DNA from: Candidatus Campbelliibacteriota bacterium
GTDB lineage: Bacteria; Patescibacteriota; Minisyncoccia; Phycocordibacterales; CSBR16-193
Length of the DNA stretch: 35,631 bases
Assembly (NCBI GenBank): GCA_007125155.1
Contig: SLDR01000038.1
Coordinates: 1 to 35,631 of the forward strand
Reading direction: 5' to 3'
Shown here: in pieces, positions 12,989-18,342 of the stretch
Numbering within the stretch: the first letter of the stretch is position 1
Layout: the number at the start of each line of letters is the position of its first letter
Notes under the pieces: model-generated
What the model was told of the DNA's origin: nothing
What the model saw: only the letters and a program-made list of their open reading frames with translations
Database searches by the model: none
Position numbers and translations under genes: made by a program

Positions 12989-14710
12989 ATGGACATAAAG
13001 ACGAAGATCATAAAGACCATAAGTACGGCATTGGATGAACGGGGAATATCGGTTTCGACGGTGGATCTGGAGCACCCGTCTGATATGACTCATGGTGATT
13101 ATGCGACCAATGTCGCCATGGTGTATGGCAAGAAGGAAGGGAGGGAACCACTGAAGCTGGCCAAGGAGATAGTTGATGATATTGAGAAAATACTTGACCG
13201 GGACATAGAAAAGGTAACGATAGCCGGTCCCGGATTCATTAATTTTCATCTTTCAAGGAGCTTTTTCTCCGGGGTCTCTTCCATGATAAAAAGGTCCGGA
13301 CGAGATTTCGGAAAGAACGATAAGCTGAAAGGAAAAAGAGTAATGGTGGAATACACCGACCCGAATCCTTTCAAAGAGCTACATGCGGGACACTTGATGA
13401 GTAACTCGGTAGGCGAATCCGTTTCAAGGCTCATGGAGTTTGCCGGAGCCCAAGTTATAAGGGCCAATTACCAAGGAGATGTCGGTCCTCATGTAGCTAA
13501 AGCTTTATGGGGAATGATAAAAATGAAGAGCTCCCTCCCGAAGGAAGAGGCCACCCTTGAAGAGAAGATATCTTTCATAGGGCGGGCATATGTTGAAGGA
13601 TCGACGGAATACGAAAAAAATGAAGAGACCCGGAAAGAAATAGATGAGATAAACAAAGCGGTATATGAAAAAAGCGATCCCGAACTGATGGATCTTTATA
13701 GTTGGGGTCGGGAGATAAGCCTTGTTCATTTTGAGAATATATACAAAAAACTTGACACCTCTTTCGATCATTATTTTTTCGAAAGCGAAACTGCTCAGAA
13801 AGGGAAGGAGATAGTGAAGAATGGTCTTAAAAAGGGAGTTTTTGAAATGTCGGACGGCGCGGTGGTCTTTAAGGGTGAGGAATACGGTCTTCATACCAGA
13901 GTATTCATAACTTCTCTGGGACTTCCCACTTATGAAGCGAAGGATCTGGGACTCAACACTCTGAAGTTTGAGATCGAAGATCCGGACCTTTCCATCGTGG
14001 TGACCGCCAATGAACAGAAGGAGTATTTTAAGGTGATGTTGAAGGCCCTGTCTTTGCTTTATCCGGATGTTGTTCGTAAGACCGTACATGTCACTCACGG
14101 AATTCTTACCACCCCGGAAGGCAAGATGTCGTCTCGCTTGGGGAATGTGATCGGGGGAGGAACATTGCTTGATGATGCCGAAGAGATGGTTTTGAAAAGG
14201 ACCAAAAAAGGAGGCAAATTTGAAAATGAAGAAGAAGAAAAAAAAGCTTCCGCCGTAATTGCTTTGGCCGCCGTAAGGTTCGCCATCTTAAAGCAGGCTC
14301 CGGGAAAGAACGTTGTTTTCGATTTTGACCGCTCCCTTTCGCTTGAAGGTGATTCGGGGCCTTACTTGCAGTATTCTCTGACCCGGGCAACCTCGGTTAT
14401 AAGACTGGCGACCGACCTTGGCATAGAGGCCGATGAATCGGGGGAGTTCTTTTTGGAAACCGAACTGGAGCGTTTAATTTACAGATTTCCCGAGGTGGTG
14501 GAGAGGGCTCAAAAAGAGTATGCTCCTCATCATATTGTGACCTATCTGATATCATTGGCGTCTTGTTTTAATGTGTTTTACGCCGAACACAGAATAGCGG
14601 ATCCCGATGACAGATACTCCGGCTATAAGCTCCTGCTCACCGAAAGCTTTCAAACCGTAATGAAGAACGGTCTTTATATTCTGGGTATAGACGCACCTGA
14701 AAGAATGTGA
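12989..14710 (+). CDS. argS: Arginyl-tRNA synthetase
   Basis: DPNPFKELHAGHLMSNSVGESVSRL (HIGH region), KMSSRLGNVI, and DALR-type anticodon-binding C-terminus. Confidence 0.96.
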   Translation: MDIKTKIIKTISTALDERGISVSTVDLEHPSDMTHGDYATNVAMVYGKKEGREPLKLAKEIVDDIEKILDRDIEKVTIAGPGFINFHLSRSFFSGVSSMIKRSGRDFGKNDKLKGKRVMVEYTDPNPFKELHAGHLMSNSVGESVSRLMEFAGAQVIRANYQGDVGPHVAKALWGMIKMKSSLPKEEATLEEKISFIGRAYVEGSTEYEKNEETRKEIDEINKAVYEKSDPELMDLYSWGREISLVHFENIYKKLDTSFDHYFFESETAQKGKEIVKNGLKKGVFEMSDGAVVFKGEEYGLHTRVFITSLGLPTYEAKDLGLNTLKFEIEDPDLSIVVTANEQKEYFKVMLKALSLLYPDVVRKTVHVTHGILTTPEGKMSSRLGNVIGGGTLLDDAEEMVLKRTKKGGKFENEEEEKKASAVIALAAVRFAILKQAPGKNVVFDFDRSLSLEGDSGPYLQYSLTRATSVIRLATDLGIEADESGEFFLETELERLIYRFPEVVERAQKEYAPHHIVTYLISLASCFNVFYAEHRIADPDDRYSGYKLLLTESFQTVMKNGLYILGIDAPERM

Positions 14711-14790: not shown

Positions 14791-17700
14791 ATGAGTTTTA
14801 ATGAAGATGTAAACGAAAAAAGAAAAAGTGATATCGCCATCGAAGAAGAAAAAGTTCTTCGTTTTTGGCAAGAACGCGAAATTTTTAGAAAAACTTTGGA
14901 GAGGCCTGCATCTGAAGGGAACTTCGTTTTCTATGACGGTCCTCCTTTTGCCACAGGTCTTCCTCATTACGGCCATATTTTGGCCGGGACCATAAAAGAT
15001 GTCATTCCCCGGTATCAAACCATGTGCGGCAAGTATGTCCGAAGGGTTTGGGGTTGGGATTGCCACGGCCTTCCCGTGGAGAATCTGGTAGAAAAAGAGT
15101 TGGGTCTCAAGAGTAAAAAGGACATAGAGGATTACGGTATAGAAGAGTTCAATCGAGCGGCTCGAGAGAGTGTCCTGTTATACGATAAAGAATGGAAAAG
15201 AATAATCCCGCGAATGGGTCGTTGGGTGGATATGGATAACGCCTACAAGACCATGAACCCCTCCTTTACCGAGTCGGTTTTCCATTCATTTAAGATGCTT
15301 AATGAAAAAGGTCTTCTGTACAAGGGTTTTAAATCAATGCATATATGTCCCAGATGTGAGACCACTCTTTCCAATTTTGAAGTGAATCTGGGATATAAAG
15401 ATATAAAAGATAACTCTGTCACGGCAATGTTCAAGCTCAGAGACCCCGATACCGAGAAGCTCGGGATCAAGAAGAAGAAAAATGTTTACGTGTTGAGCTG
15501 GACCACCACTCCTTGGACCCTGCCGGGCAATGCCGCTTTGGCCGTAGGTGGGGAAATAAGATATGTTTTGGTTGAAAAAGAAGAAGCTTATTATATTTTG
15601 GCCGAAGATCGGCTGAGTAAGGTCATCGGTGAAGACGCAAAGACGGAGGCCTCAATGAAAGGTAAAGACCTCGAGGGGCTTGCTTATGAGCCTTTGTTTG
15701 ATTTCTTTATTGATTCCGATCTTCACGGCGATAAGGAAAAAGGATGGAAGATATATTCCGCCGATTTTGTGACTACCGAGGAGGGTACGGGTGTGGTTCA
15801 TATAGCCCCGGCTTTTGGTTACGACGACCATGAGCTTTCAAAGGAACATGACATTCCGTTTATCCAGCATGTCAACATGCGCGGTGAATTTACCAAAGAA
15901 CTGGGCGATCTCGCCGGAAGACAGGTCAAGCCCGAAGGAGATTGTTCGGAGACCGATATTGAGATAATAAAAAGACTGGCTCGCGAAGGAAAACTTTTTT
16001 CTAAAGAAAAAATAACCCATTCTTATCCTCACTGCTGGCGTTGTGAAACTCCTCTTTTGAATTATGCCACTGACTCTTGGTTCGTGAAGGTCTCAGATCT
16101 TGTCGGGAAACTGGTAGAGGAGAATAAGAAGGTCCTATGGATACCCGAGCATGTGGGCAGTAATCGCTTTGGTGAATGGTTGGCGGAAGCGAAAGATTGG
16201 TCGGTATCACGTTCCAGATTCTGGGGTACACCCATTCCAATTTGGGAGTGTCATGATTGCGGAGAGTATACCGTTGTAGGTTCTTTTGAGGAGATAGCCA
16301 AACAGTCGAACAATGTTTATTTTGCGGTTCGCCACGGTGAGGCTGAAAGCAACGTGAAAGATATTTTGAGTTCGGGTCCGGAGAATCCCCATCATTTGAC
16401 TGAAAAAGGCAAGAAGCAGGTAAAGAAGACCGCAAATACGATATCTTCGGATCCCCCTGATGTGATCGTAACCTCTGACATATTGAGAGCAAAGGAGACG
16501 GCGGAAATAATAGCCGATGTTTGCGGTATATCCTCCGAACACATAGTCGAAGACGCCAGGTTGCGTGAACTTGATTTCGGAGACCTGAACCTGCGTCCCG
16601 CCGATGAATACAGAGGTCTTTTCGATGACTGGACTGATACCTTTGAGAACAGGATCCCCGGAGGCGAAAGTTATGTTGATGTAAAGAGACGCCTCGGTGC
16701 CCTCATGGATGAGCTGGAAATGAAGTATTCCGGCAAAAGGATACTTATTGTTTCTCATAATGCCCCGCTTTGGCTTCTGAGCTGTGTCGCGGTCTTCGCT
16801 GACAGGAAGGAGTCAATAGAAATAAGAGGTGACAAGAAGAAAGACTTCATGGACAACGCCGAAGTCCGTGAGATAACTTACAAGCGTTTACCTCATAATG
16901 AAAATTACGAGAAGGACATGCATCGCCCTTACATCGATGAGGTCGAACTTAATTGCTCTTGCGGTGGCGTTATGAAGAGAATAAGCGACGTTTTTGATAC
17001 TTGGTATGATTCGGGGTCCGTTCCGTTCGCTCAGATACACTATCCCTTTGAAAATAAAAAGGAGTTCGAAAAAGCCGACAGTCCTTATTTTCCGGCCGAC
17101 TTTATTGCCGAGGGTCAAGATCAGACAAGGGGGTGGTTCTATACTCTTTTGGTATTGTCGACGGCGCTTTTCGGCAGAAGTCCGTTCAAAACGGTCGTTG
17201 TCAACGGTATAGTCTTGGCCGAGGATGGAAAGAAGATGTCAAAACGTCTTAAGAACTATCCGGACCCCATGGATATTGTGGATCGTTACGGCGCGGATGC
17301 TTTGAGGTATTCTATGCTCTCGTCTCAGGTTGTAAGGGCCGAGGATCTTGCTTTTAGCGAAGGTCGCGCTGATGAGGTTGCCAAAAAGCTCATAAACCGC
17401 CTTATGAACGTTGTTGCCTTCTACCGGATGTATGCTTCCGAGGACACTCCGCATATTGCTATTAAAGGAAAAAAGAAAAAAGATCTTGAGAGATTCGAAA
17501 AGCTCGATAAATGGATAGAGGCCCGGCTGATGGAGGTCGTTGAACAGGTTACCAAAGGCCTTGATGCTTATGAGATAAATCAAGCCGCTCGGCCTCTTAT
17601 GGATTTTGTTGACGATCTTTCAACGTGGTATATTCGAAGGTCGAGAGAACGGTTTAAAAACGAAGGAGAAGATTCGAAAAAGTGCCTTTTCGTGATCCGC

Positions 17701-18342
17701 ACGGTCTTGAAAACTTACTCCCAACTGCTGGCCCCTTTCATGCCGTTTACGGCCGAGAGGGTTTACGGAGCGGTAAGATCGAACGAGGATCCCGAAAGTG
17801 TGCACCTGGCATCTTGGCCCGAGAAAGAGGAGTATGATCGGTCCGTTATGGATGATTTCCGAAAGGTCAGGAAGATAATCTCGATCGCCCTTGAAAGACG
17901 CTCGGAGGCGGGTGTCCGTGTTCGCCAGCCTCTGTCAAAGGTGGTTCTAAAGCGAGGTCCGGAGTATCTGATAGAGGATGATGAACTAATTGAACACATA
18001 AGATCGGAAGTTAACGTAAAAGAGGTTGTGTTCAAGGATGGAATGAAGTCCGACATTGAATTGGATCTTGATCTGACACCCGACCTTATAAAGGAAGGAG
18101 AGATACGCGATCTGGTAAGGATCCTTCAGAGTTGCCGTAAAAAAGAAGGTTTCACCTCACAGGAAAAGGCCAAGCTCTCGGTCGAGACCGATGAAAGCGG
18201 AAAGGAATTGCTCGATAATGCTTCCGATGAACTTCGTGAAACCGTCAAGGTAACGGATATAGTTCATAAGGTTGCCGGGAAGTTTCATGAGTTCTCAGTG
18301 AATGAAAAGAAATTTCGCGTGGGGTTGGAAAAAGACGAATAA
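14791..18342 (+). CDS. ileS: Isoleucyl-tRNA synthetase with an internal histidine-phosphatase domain
   Basis: PPFATGLPHYGHILAGTIKD (HIGH), WTTTPWTLPGNAALAV (CP1 editing), KKMSKRLKNYPDP (KMSKS). Codons ~507-705 carry a histidine phosphatase fold (RHGEAESN, SDILRAKETA, LRELDFGD, PGGES, IVSHNAPLW). Confidence 0.97.
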   Translation: MSFNEDVNEKRKSDIAIEEEKVLRFWQEREIFRKTLERPASEGNFVFYDGPPFATGLPHYGHILAGTIKDVIPRYQTMCGKYVRRVWGWDCHGLPVENLVEKELGLKSKKDIEDYGIEEFNRAARESVLLYDKEWKRIIPRMGRWVDMDNAYKTMNPSFTESVFHSFKMLNEKGLLYKGFKSMHICPRCETTLSNFEVNLGYKDIKDNSVTAMFKLRDPDTEKLGIKKKKNVYVLSWTTTPWTLPGNAALAVGGEIRYVLVEKEEAYYILAEDRLSKVIGEDAKTEASMKGKDLEGLAYEPLFDFFIDSDLHGDKEKGWKIYSADFVTTEEGTGVVHIAPAFGYDDHELSKEHDIPFIQHVNMRGEFTKELGDLAGRQVKPEGDCSETDIEIIKRLAREGKLFSKEKITHSYPHCWRCETPLLNYATDSWFVKVSDLVGKLVEENKKVLWIPEHVGSNRFGEWLAEAKDWSVSRSRFWGTPIPIWECHDCGEYTVVGSFEEIAKQSNNVYFAVRHGEAESNVKDILSSGPENPHHLTEKGKKQVKKTANTISSDPPDVIVTSDILRAKETAEIIADVCGISSEHIVEDARLRELDFGDLNLRPADEYRGLFDDWTDTFENRIPGGESYVDVKRRLGALMDELEMKYSGKRILIVSHNAPLWLLSCVAVFADRKESIEIRGDKKKDFMDNAEVREITYKRLPHNENYEKDMHRPYIDEVELNCSCGGVMKRISDVFDTWYDSGSVPFAQIHYPFENKKEFEKADSPYFPADFIAEGQDQTRGWFYTLLVLSTALFGRSPFKTVVVNGIVLAEDGKKMSKRLKNYPDPMDIVDRYGADALRYSMLSSQVVRAEDLAFSEGRADEVAKKLINRLMNVVAFYRMYASEDTPHIAIKGKKKKDLERFEKLDKWIEARLMEVVEQVTKGLDAYEINQAARPLMDFVDDLSTWYIRRSRERFKNEGEDSKKCLFVIRTVLKTYSQLLAPFMPFTAERVYGAVRSNEDPESVHLASWPEKEEYDRSVMDDFRKVRKIISIALERRSEAGVRVRQPLSKVVLKRGPEYLIEDDELIEHIRSEVNVKEVVFKDGMKSDIELDLDLTPDLIKEGEIRDLVRILQSCRKKEGFTSQEKAKLSVETDESGKELLDNASDELRETVKVTDIVHKVAGKFHEFSVNEKKFRVGLEKDE
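16309..16905 (+). other. In-frame inserted histidine phosphatase (phosphoglycerate-mutase-like) domain within ileS
   Basis: Catalytic set present: R514/H515 (RHGE, codons at 16330 and 16333), R566 (SDILRAKET, 16486), E593 (LRELDFG), H656 (VSHN, 16756). Flanked by IleRS sequence WECHDCGEYTVVGSFEEI and DMHRPYIDEVELNCSCGG. Confidence 0.93.

Follow-up and report, generated by a model that had tools for sequence, protein, structure and literature searches.

A histidine phosphatase domain with a conserved active site is embedded in isoleucyl-tRNA synthetases of Patescibacteria

Introduction

The closest described relatives of the synthetase reported here are type-2 isoleucyl-tRNA synthetases (IleRS), represented by Priestia megaterium IleRS2 and by the Thermus thermophilus enzyme (1ile), which resemble it over the entire body, including the CP1 editing domain, the zinc ribbon and the anticodon domain. 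A curated class of IleRS with an extra small enzyme domain exists (NCBIfam NF040702, ileS_w_GNAT), but the extra enzyme is an acetyltransferase, not a phosphatase. Domain fusion and swapping were reported in 2017 for an aminoacyl-tRNA synthetase (aaRS) of CPR bacteria, TyrRS (PMC5370408); this is another synthetase with another domain, and IleRS and ValRS are not mentioned there. A histidine phosphatase (HP) domain joined to machinery of the tRNA pathway is found in tau55, a subunit of yeast TFIIIC (PMC4490372), but tau55 is a transcription factor subunit and not a synthetase, and its HP domain is termed non-conserved in that work. The 2024 AARS Online paper tabulates aaRS domain superfamilies without using the word 'phosphatase' (PMC11580382). 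Among the 5.39 million open papers searched, none was found that describes an HP in IleRS or ValRS; subscription papers and InterPro architecture lists were outside the scope of that search, and it is possible that the architecture already stands in databases without a paper.

The window analysed here is the whole stretch of 35,631 nucleotides of contig SLDR01000038.1 (assembly GCA_007125155.1), from a Candidatus Campbelliibacteriota bacterium of the order Phycocordibacterales (Patescibacteriota). A sequence-only reading had proposed that a catalytically competent HP domain is inserted in its IleRS. We describe the domain, its distribution in relatives, its evolutionary history and the functions that it may have.

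Results

A complete IleRS containing a complete phosphatase

The features discussed below are as follows.

12989–14710, + strand: argS, immediate upstream neighbour of ileS (gene name from sequence)
14791–18342, + strand: ileS, IleRS with embedded HP, 1183 amino acids (AA) (Pfam, NCBIfam, AlphaFold)
16246–16263, + strand: first half of the zinc ribbon (ECHDCG, Cys487/Cys490), aligned to Cys461/Cys464 of 1ile
16309–16905, + strand: inserted HP domain, AA 507–705 (Pfam, PDB sequence matches, AlphaFold, Foldseek)
16324–16812, + strand: Pfam core of the HP insert, AA 512–674 (PF00300 His_Phos_1)
16330–16335, + strand: catalytic R514 and phospho-acceptor H515 (RHG motif), invariant in all IleRS-borne HP domains examined
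16486–16488, + strand: catalytic R566, invariant in IleRS-borne HP domains
16567–16569, + strand: acid/base E593, E in all except three IleRS-borne HP domains and D in those three
16756–16758, + strand: second catalytic H656, invariant in IleRS-borne HP domains
16954–16962, + strand: second half of the zinc ribbon (CSC, Cys722/Cys724), aligned to Cys502/Cys504 of 1ile

The ileS frame is open from end to end, and its product meets the NCBIfam definition of IleRS (TIGR00392, 881 bits for a cut-off of 621). Pfam tRNA-synt_1 matches flank His_Phos_1 on either side, and Anticodon_1 is also matched. The class I signatures and the CP1 editing region are kept, residues H62, W237–T239, D346, K815, S817 and K818 being invariant or nearly so in 56 homologues. 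The AlphaFold model of the full-length protein (pLDDT 89.6, pTM 0.82) finds as its top PDB folds P. megaterium IleRS2 (8c8v and 8c8u), yeast IleRS and T. thermophilus 1ile, with TM-scores of 0.79–0.87 (normalised by target) in the best matches to type-2 IleRS. The protein is a complete type-2-like IleRS; that it charges tRNA-Ile is inferred from its sequence. It has no GNAT domain and scores 329 bits with NF040702, whose cut-off is 1999.

The insert matches PF00300, which represents branch 1 of the HP superfamily, with an E-value of 4.4e-34 and 118.3 bits against a gathering cut-off of 21.7, and it contains all the catalytic residues of that family, namely the Arg-His pair, the second Arg, the Glu/Asp and the second His. 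Modelled alone it folds with a pLDDT of 96.8. Its sequence matches phosphoserine phosphatase 1, PhoE, CobC and others in the PDB, and its model meets the criterion for a phosphatase fold in Foldseek comparisons (E-values down to 8e-14), the best folds being phosphoserine phosphatase, PhoE, CobC, glucosyl-3-phosphoglycerate phosphatase and an HP of the riboflavin pathway. The fold and catalytic residues are thus those of PhoE, CobC, PspA and glucosyl-3-phosphoglycerate phosphatase (TM-scores of about 0.7–0.78), but identity to these enzymes is only about 22–27% in the fold alignments, and the insert differs from such branch-1 HPs in being embedded in a synthetase. On the insert, every curated function model stays below its cut-off, whether for 2,3-BPG-dependent phosphoglycerate mutase (NF038349, 88.9 versus 225 bits), for the alpha-ribazole phosphatase CobC (TIGR03162, 77.7 versus 162.9 bits) or for the phosphoserine phosphatase PspA (NF045917, 54.5 versus 350 bits). 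The insert is a complete PhoE/CobC-like HP with an intact active site.

The phosphatase occupies one loop of the zinc ribbon

Alignment to 1ile places the insert between T. thermophilus residues 479 and 489, so that about 200 residues of phosphatase stand where 1ile has about nine. The insert is flanked by the cysteine pairs C461/C464 and C502/C504 (1ile numbering), which we take to be zinc ligands. These cysteines are gone in several carriers of the HP (for example L026, L040 and L047), and therefore the loop, rather than the metal, is the constant feature. The insertion point in IleRS is always this same loop. The insert-free IleRS that were fetched, including the longest open reading frames (ORFs) without an HP match, have only 11–67 amino acids at the site, and therefore every long insert seen there contains an HP. 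A possible deletion scar in the insert-free L059 (LPQNENGEPDLHKP compared with LPHNENYEKDMHRP) is suggestive, and it was not used as evidence; similar text occurs in insert-free IleRS such as L208.

Nearly all relatives in the order share the architecture

In a sample of 60 genomes from 59 genera, of the same order or closer, an HP-bearing IleRS is present in 55 of the 59 genomes that have an IleRS. In the other four (G024, G031, G056 and G057) the IleRS is insert-free, and no clear IleRS was found in G040, which is 68% complete. Sequences of relatives have the same architecture at 40–57% identity. Seven of eight genomes sampled from other orders of the class also carry an HP in IleRS, the eighth (G227) having an insert-free IleRS of 965 amino acids and, at a locus unrelated to it, a separate HP gene that belongs to the same clade. 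Most of the phylum sample lacks the insert: of 181 sampled genomes in which an IleRS was matched, about 30 have it, a count that is approximate. Named carriers include Taylor-, Yanofsky-, Harrison-, Giovannoni-, Peregrini- and Peribacteria metagenome-assembled genomes (MAGs). In a named scan of 85,462 species, which rests on peptide patterns, 80 loci were kept, and every HP found inside a synthetase among them belongs to a CPR/Patescibacteria record.

The active site is fixed while the rest of the domain diverges

We listed 104 IleRS-borne HP domains (89 single, seven first copies and eight second copies), one second copy (L169/L183) being a single gene fetched twice, which leaves 103 distinct domains. 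R514, H515, R566 and H656 are invariant in all 103, and position 593 is E, or D in three. Only nine columns of the insert alignment are invariant: the four catalytic residues just named, G540, S562, E626 and R634 of the HP motifs, and H711 in the flank. Median pairwise identity is 35% for the insert versus 51% for the IleRS body; the insert evolves faster, with its active site retained, and this strict conservation spans about 57 families in the order as well as several further lineages of Patescibacteria. A diverging surface around a fixed active site is the pattern that selection for catalysis would be expected to leave. The ratio dN/dS against the closest relative was unusable, synonymous sites being saturated. 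In an automatic alignment E593 or H656 is changed in two ValRS-borne HPs, the second copy of L098 and that of L174; possible decay of the active site was seen only in these two.

These results bear on the sequence-only reading, which had placed an HP domain at 16309–16905 inside the 1183-AA IleRS, had listed R514, H515, R566, E593 and H656 as present, and had predicted a competent phosphatase. The first claim held in the Pfam, TIGR00392, PDB and AlphaFold comparisons, and the residues lie exactly at those positions. Competence is supported by the strict conservation of the active site; activity, presumably that of a phosphomonoesterase, and substrate remain inferred. The same reading had named three findings that would refute it. 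The absence of an HP match and the loss of catalytic residues in homologues were both examined, and the claim stands on both counts; the third, an assembly chimera, is untenable given the conserved architecture in relatives.

Tandem copies and phosphatases in ValRS

Tandem HP pairs occur in seven distinct IleRS of Peregrini- and Peribacteria type (L076, L077, L084, L178, L180, L181 and L183). HPs are also present in nine ValRS ORFs, two of which contain two copies (L098 and L182), and they occupy the equivalent loop wherever the sequence was read (L078, L083 and L110). Genome G104 has an HP in both IleRS and ValRS, its ValRS carrying two. In two further genomes, HP domains (G014:C14:22416–22886 and G037:C3:6395–6862) lie in ORFs of 933 and 945 amino acids that match class Ia synthetases at 28–30% identity; these are likely to be ValRS with an HP, in genomes whose IleRS has one too.

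Other enzyme domains were met in some of these synthetases. The IleRS of G104 (L184:2638–6990, 1451 amino acids) has a GNAT domain together with the HP. A Dojkabacteria ValRS (L103:2580–6410) contains three extra enzyme domains: a HAD-like hydrolase in the CP1 region, a serine hydrolase (PF06821) and an HP. A Nomurabacteria ValRS (L083:17–3061) has, besides the HP, a weak ASCH-domain match as a second insert. The GNAT, HAD, serine hydrolase and ASCH inserts may point to loops that tolerate insertion.

Gain, loss and exchange of the module

The insert of the window falls inside a large clade, HP_A, in a tree of 191 HP domains. A careful tree of 39 domains supports HP_A at 99/99.7 and a second clade, HP_B, at 100/98, the members of HP_B (L023, L035, L048, L051 and L053) all coming from genomes of the same order. 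Constraining all inserts of the order to one clade is weakly rejected (AU p 0.026), and the IleRS bodies that carry HP_B do not form a clade (AU p 2e-61). On the tree of IleRS bodies the presence and absence of the HP require at least 13 changes, and strongly supported branches force 11 changes of the insert-free state. Pairwise identities of the body segments N1, N2 and C1 correlate with each other at 0.83–0.87 versus only 0.16–0.20 with those of the insert. The HP and IleRS trees disagree strongly: the module has been gained, lost and, because HP_B bodies are not a clade and insert and body identities correlate poorly, exchanged between IleRS genes. These data show neither the direction of each event nor whether it took place by gene conversion or by new insertion. 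HPs of the different clades HP_A and HP_B have arrived at the equivalent loop of two paralogous synthetases, IleRS and ValRS.

The IleRS of L048, from a genome of the window's own family (G002), falls on another main branch in the tree of IleRS bodies, and whole-gene lateral transfer of ileS among Patescibacteria therefore probably also occurs.

Gene context and stand-alone phosphatases

The MAG locus L074 has argS and an insert-free ileS with a stand-alone HP gene of the HP_A clade between them; this HP is 39–44% identical to the insert, depending on the stretch compared. In L176, a stand-alone HP gene related to the IleRS inserts of other genomes is directly upstream of an HP-bearing ileS. 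Taken together, adjacency and fusion support a functional link, but adjacent cases are few. On a Moraniibacteriota contig (L075:3080–5612), a probable argS is directly followed by a stand-alone HP. Unlike L075, the contexts of four other stand-alone relatives (L079, L187, L189 and L191) revealed no link to tRNA charging.

No stand-alone HP of the same clade, judged by E-value, was found in the insert-free G024, G031, G056 and G057, and a compensating copy in trans was rejected for these relatives. Separate HP-like genes are common across the phylum. In 17 of the 55 carriers of the order no branch-1 HP other than the insert was found, and therefore the insert is not simply redundant there. The window's genome has a PF00719 pyrophosphatase (PPase) and a separate HP resembling 2,3-BPG-dependent phosphoglycerate mutase (dPGM) at L063:4830–5459, identified by reading motifs and not by a model. 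A PF00719 match is absent from 25 of the 60 genomes of the order; two of the four insert-free relatives have it and two do not. Two fusions of dPGM-like domains were seen, each beside an enolase gene, one with a D-2-hydroxyacid-dehydrogenase-like protein (L220:1985–3643) and one with a DedA-like membrane protein (L221:1364–2665), all names coming from reading the sequence.

Discussion

This work shows that a complete HP with an intact active site lies inside a complete IleRS. The explanation that we rank first, though we hold it slightly less probable than not, is a phosphatase function tied to the synthetase–tRNA system, clearing a phosphorylated blocker or by-product; it is inferred, no substrate, activity or geometry having been shown. 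The insert would take the phosphoryl group of a phosphomonoester onto H515 and then free phosphate, and its tethering beside synthetase and tRNA would allow removal of a phosphorylated by-product or blocker of the IleRS reaction (or, in some lineages, of the ValRS reaction). Candidate targets are a phosphorylated inhibitor, a phosphorylated tRNA end and a phosphorylated residue of the synthetase. Because close relatives live without the insert, the activity must be accessory, outside aminoacylation and dispensable; frequent exchange, tandem doubling and the acetyltransferase and hydrolase inserts would be less expected of a fixed step in charging than of an accessory activity that clears or protects. 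In favour of the tied function are the intact sites in 103 HPs, the faster divergence of the insert around a kept active site, the use of the same loop, the two synthetases, the tandem pairs, the contexts of L074 and L176 and the 17 carriers in which the insert is the sole branch-1 HP found. Against it are the four insert-free relatives without a same-clade copy, the varied other inserts and the insert-free state of most of the phylum. Repeated gain, loss and swapping suggest a job that is real and as yet unidentified.

The main rival is a carrier model, in which an independent general or metabolic phosphatase is housed in a tolerant loop of the abundant and essential IleRS and is unlinked to charging. 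In its favour, loop length varies, some of these synthetases contain unrelated small enzymes as inserts, HP-like proteins encoded by genes of their own are common in the phylum, and swaps and losses occur without visible compensation. However, every long insert found at the IleRS site contains an HP, different HP clades reached the equivalent loop of IleRS and of ValRS, and a stand-alone HP relative lies beside ileS in L074, as does another HP gene in L176. We rate this model below the tied function and think it more probable that it is wrong than that it is right.

A bolder reading, which remains a possibility only, is that Patescibacteria carry, at a single constant loop of their class Ia synthetases IleRS and ValRS, an exchangeable phosphatase cassette for detoxification or repair. 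Such a cassette might shield charging from phosphorylated inhibitors or phosphate-blocked tRNA ends, its versions being traded as in an arms race.

A structural or regulatory role without catalysis, in which the HP fold would act as a stabiliser or docking surface, is disfavoured; the sequence-only reading had raised a mainly structural role. Some synthetase appendages are non-catalytic, and the AlphaFold model shows a confident fold in place. However, it is exactly the catalytic residues that selection has kept while the surface diverges, and possible decay is limited to two ValRS copies (the second HP of L098, and L174). We regard this role as unlikely.

Still less likely is the replacement of a missing housekeeping enzyme, either a PPase acting on PPi or the glycolytic phosphoglycerate mutase. 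The absence of a PF00719 match from part of the order and the carriers in which the insert is the only HP speak for it. Against it, the insert need not replace either enzyme in the window's genome because a PPase and a dPGM-like protein are separately present there, and both replacements were rejected for that genome. In addition, PPase presence does not track insert status among the insert-free relatives, and the insert is far under the dPGM cut-off. To our knowledge, branch-1 HPs do not act as PPases; they are phosphomonoesterases or mutases. The substrates proposed in the sequence-only reading (AMP, PPi, Ap4A and tRNA ends) remain guesses, with replacement of a missing PPase argued against in this genome. 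Tandem copies, HPs in ValRS and swapping of the domain had not been anticipated in that reading.

Finally, an assembly chimera or mis-joined contig, for which no supporting evidence was found, is all but excluded, as is chance, because nearly all relatives in the order and independently assembled named MAGs share the architecture.

A second complete enzyme lies inside a core enzyme of translation; its active site is conserved throughout a large radiation, and it bears the marks of having been captured and exchanged repeatedly. This raises a question that can be tested: which phosphorylated compound must tRNA charging clear in these reduced cells? The architecture is also a clear example of a single class Ia synthetase loop to which the same enzyme family has come again and again, and the presence of an HP in IleRS provides a marker architecture for Patescibacteria genomes.
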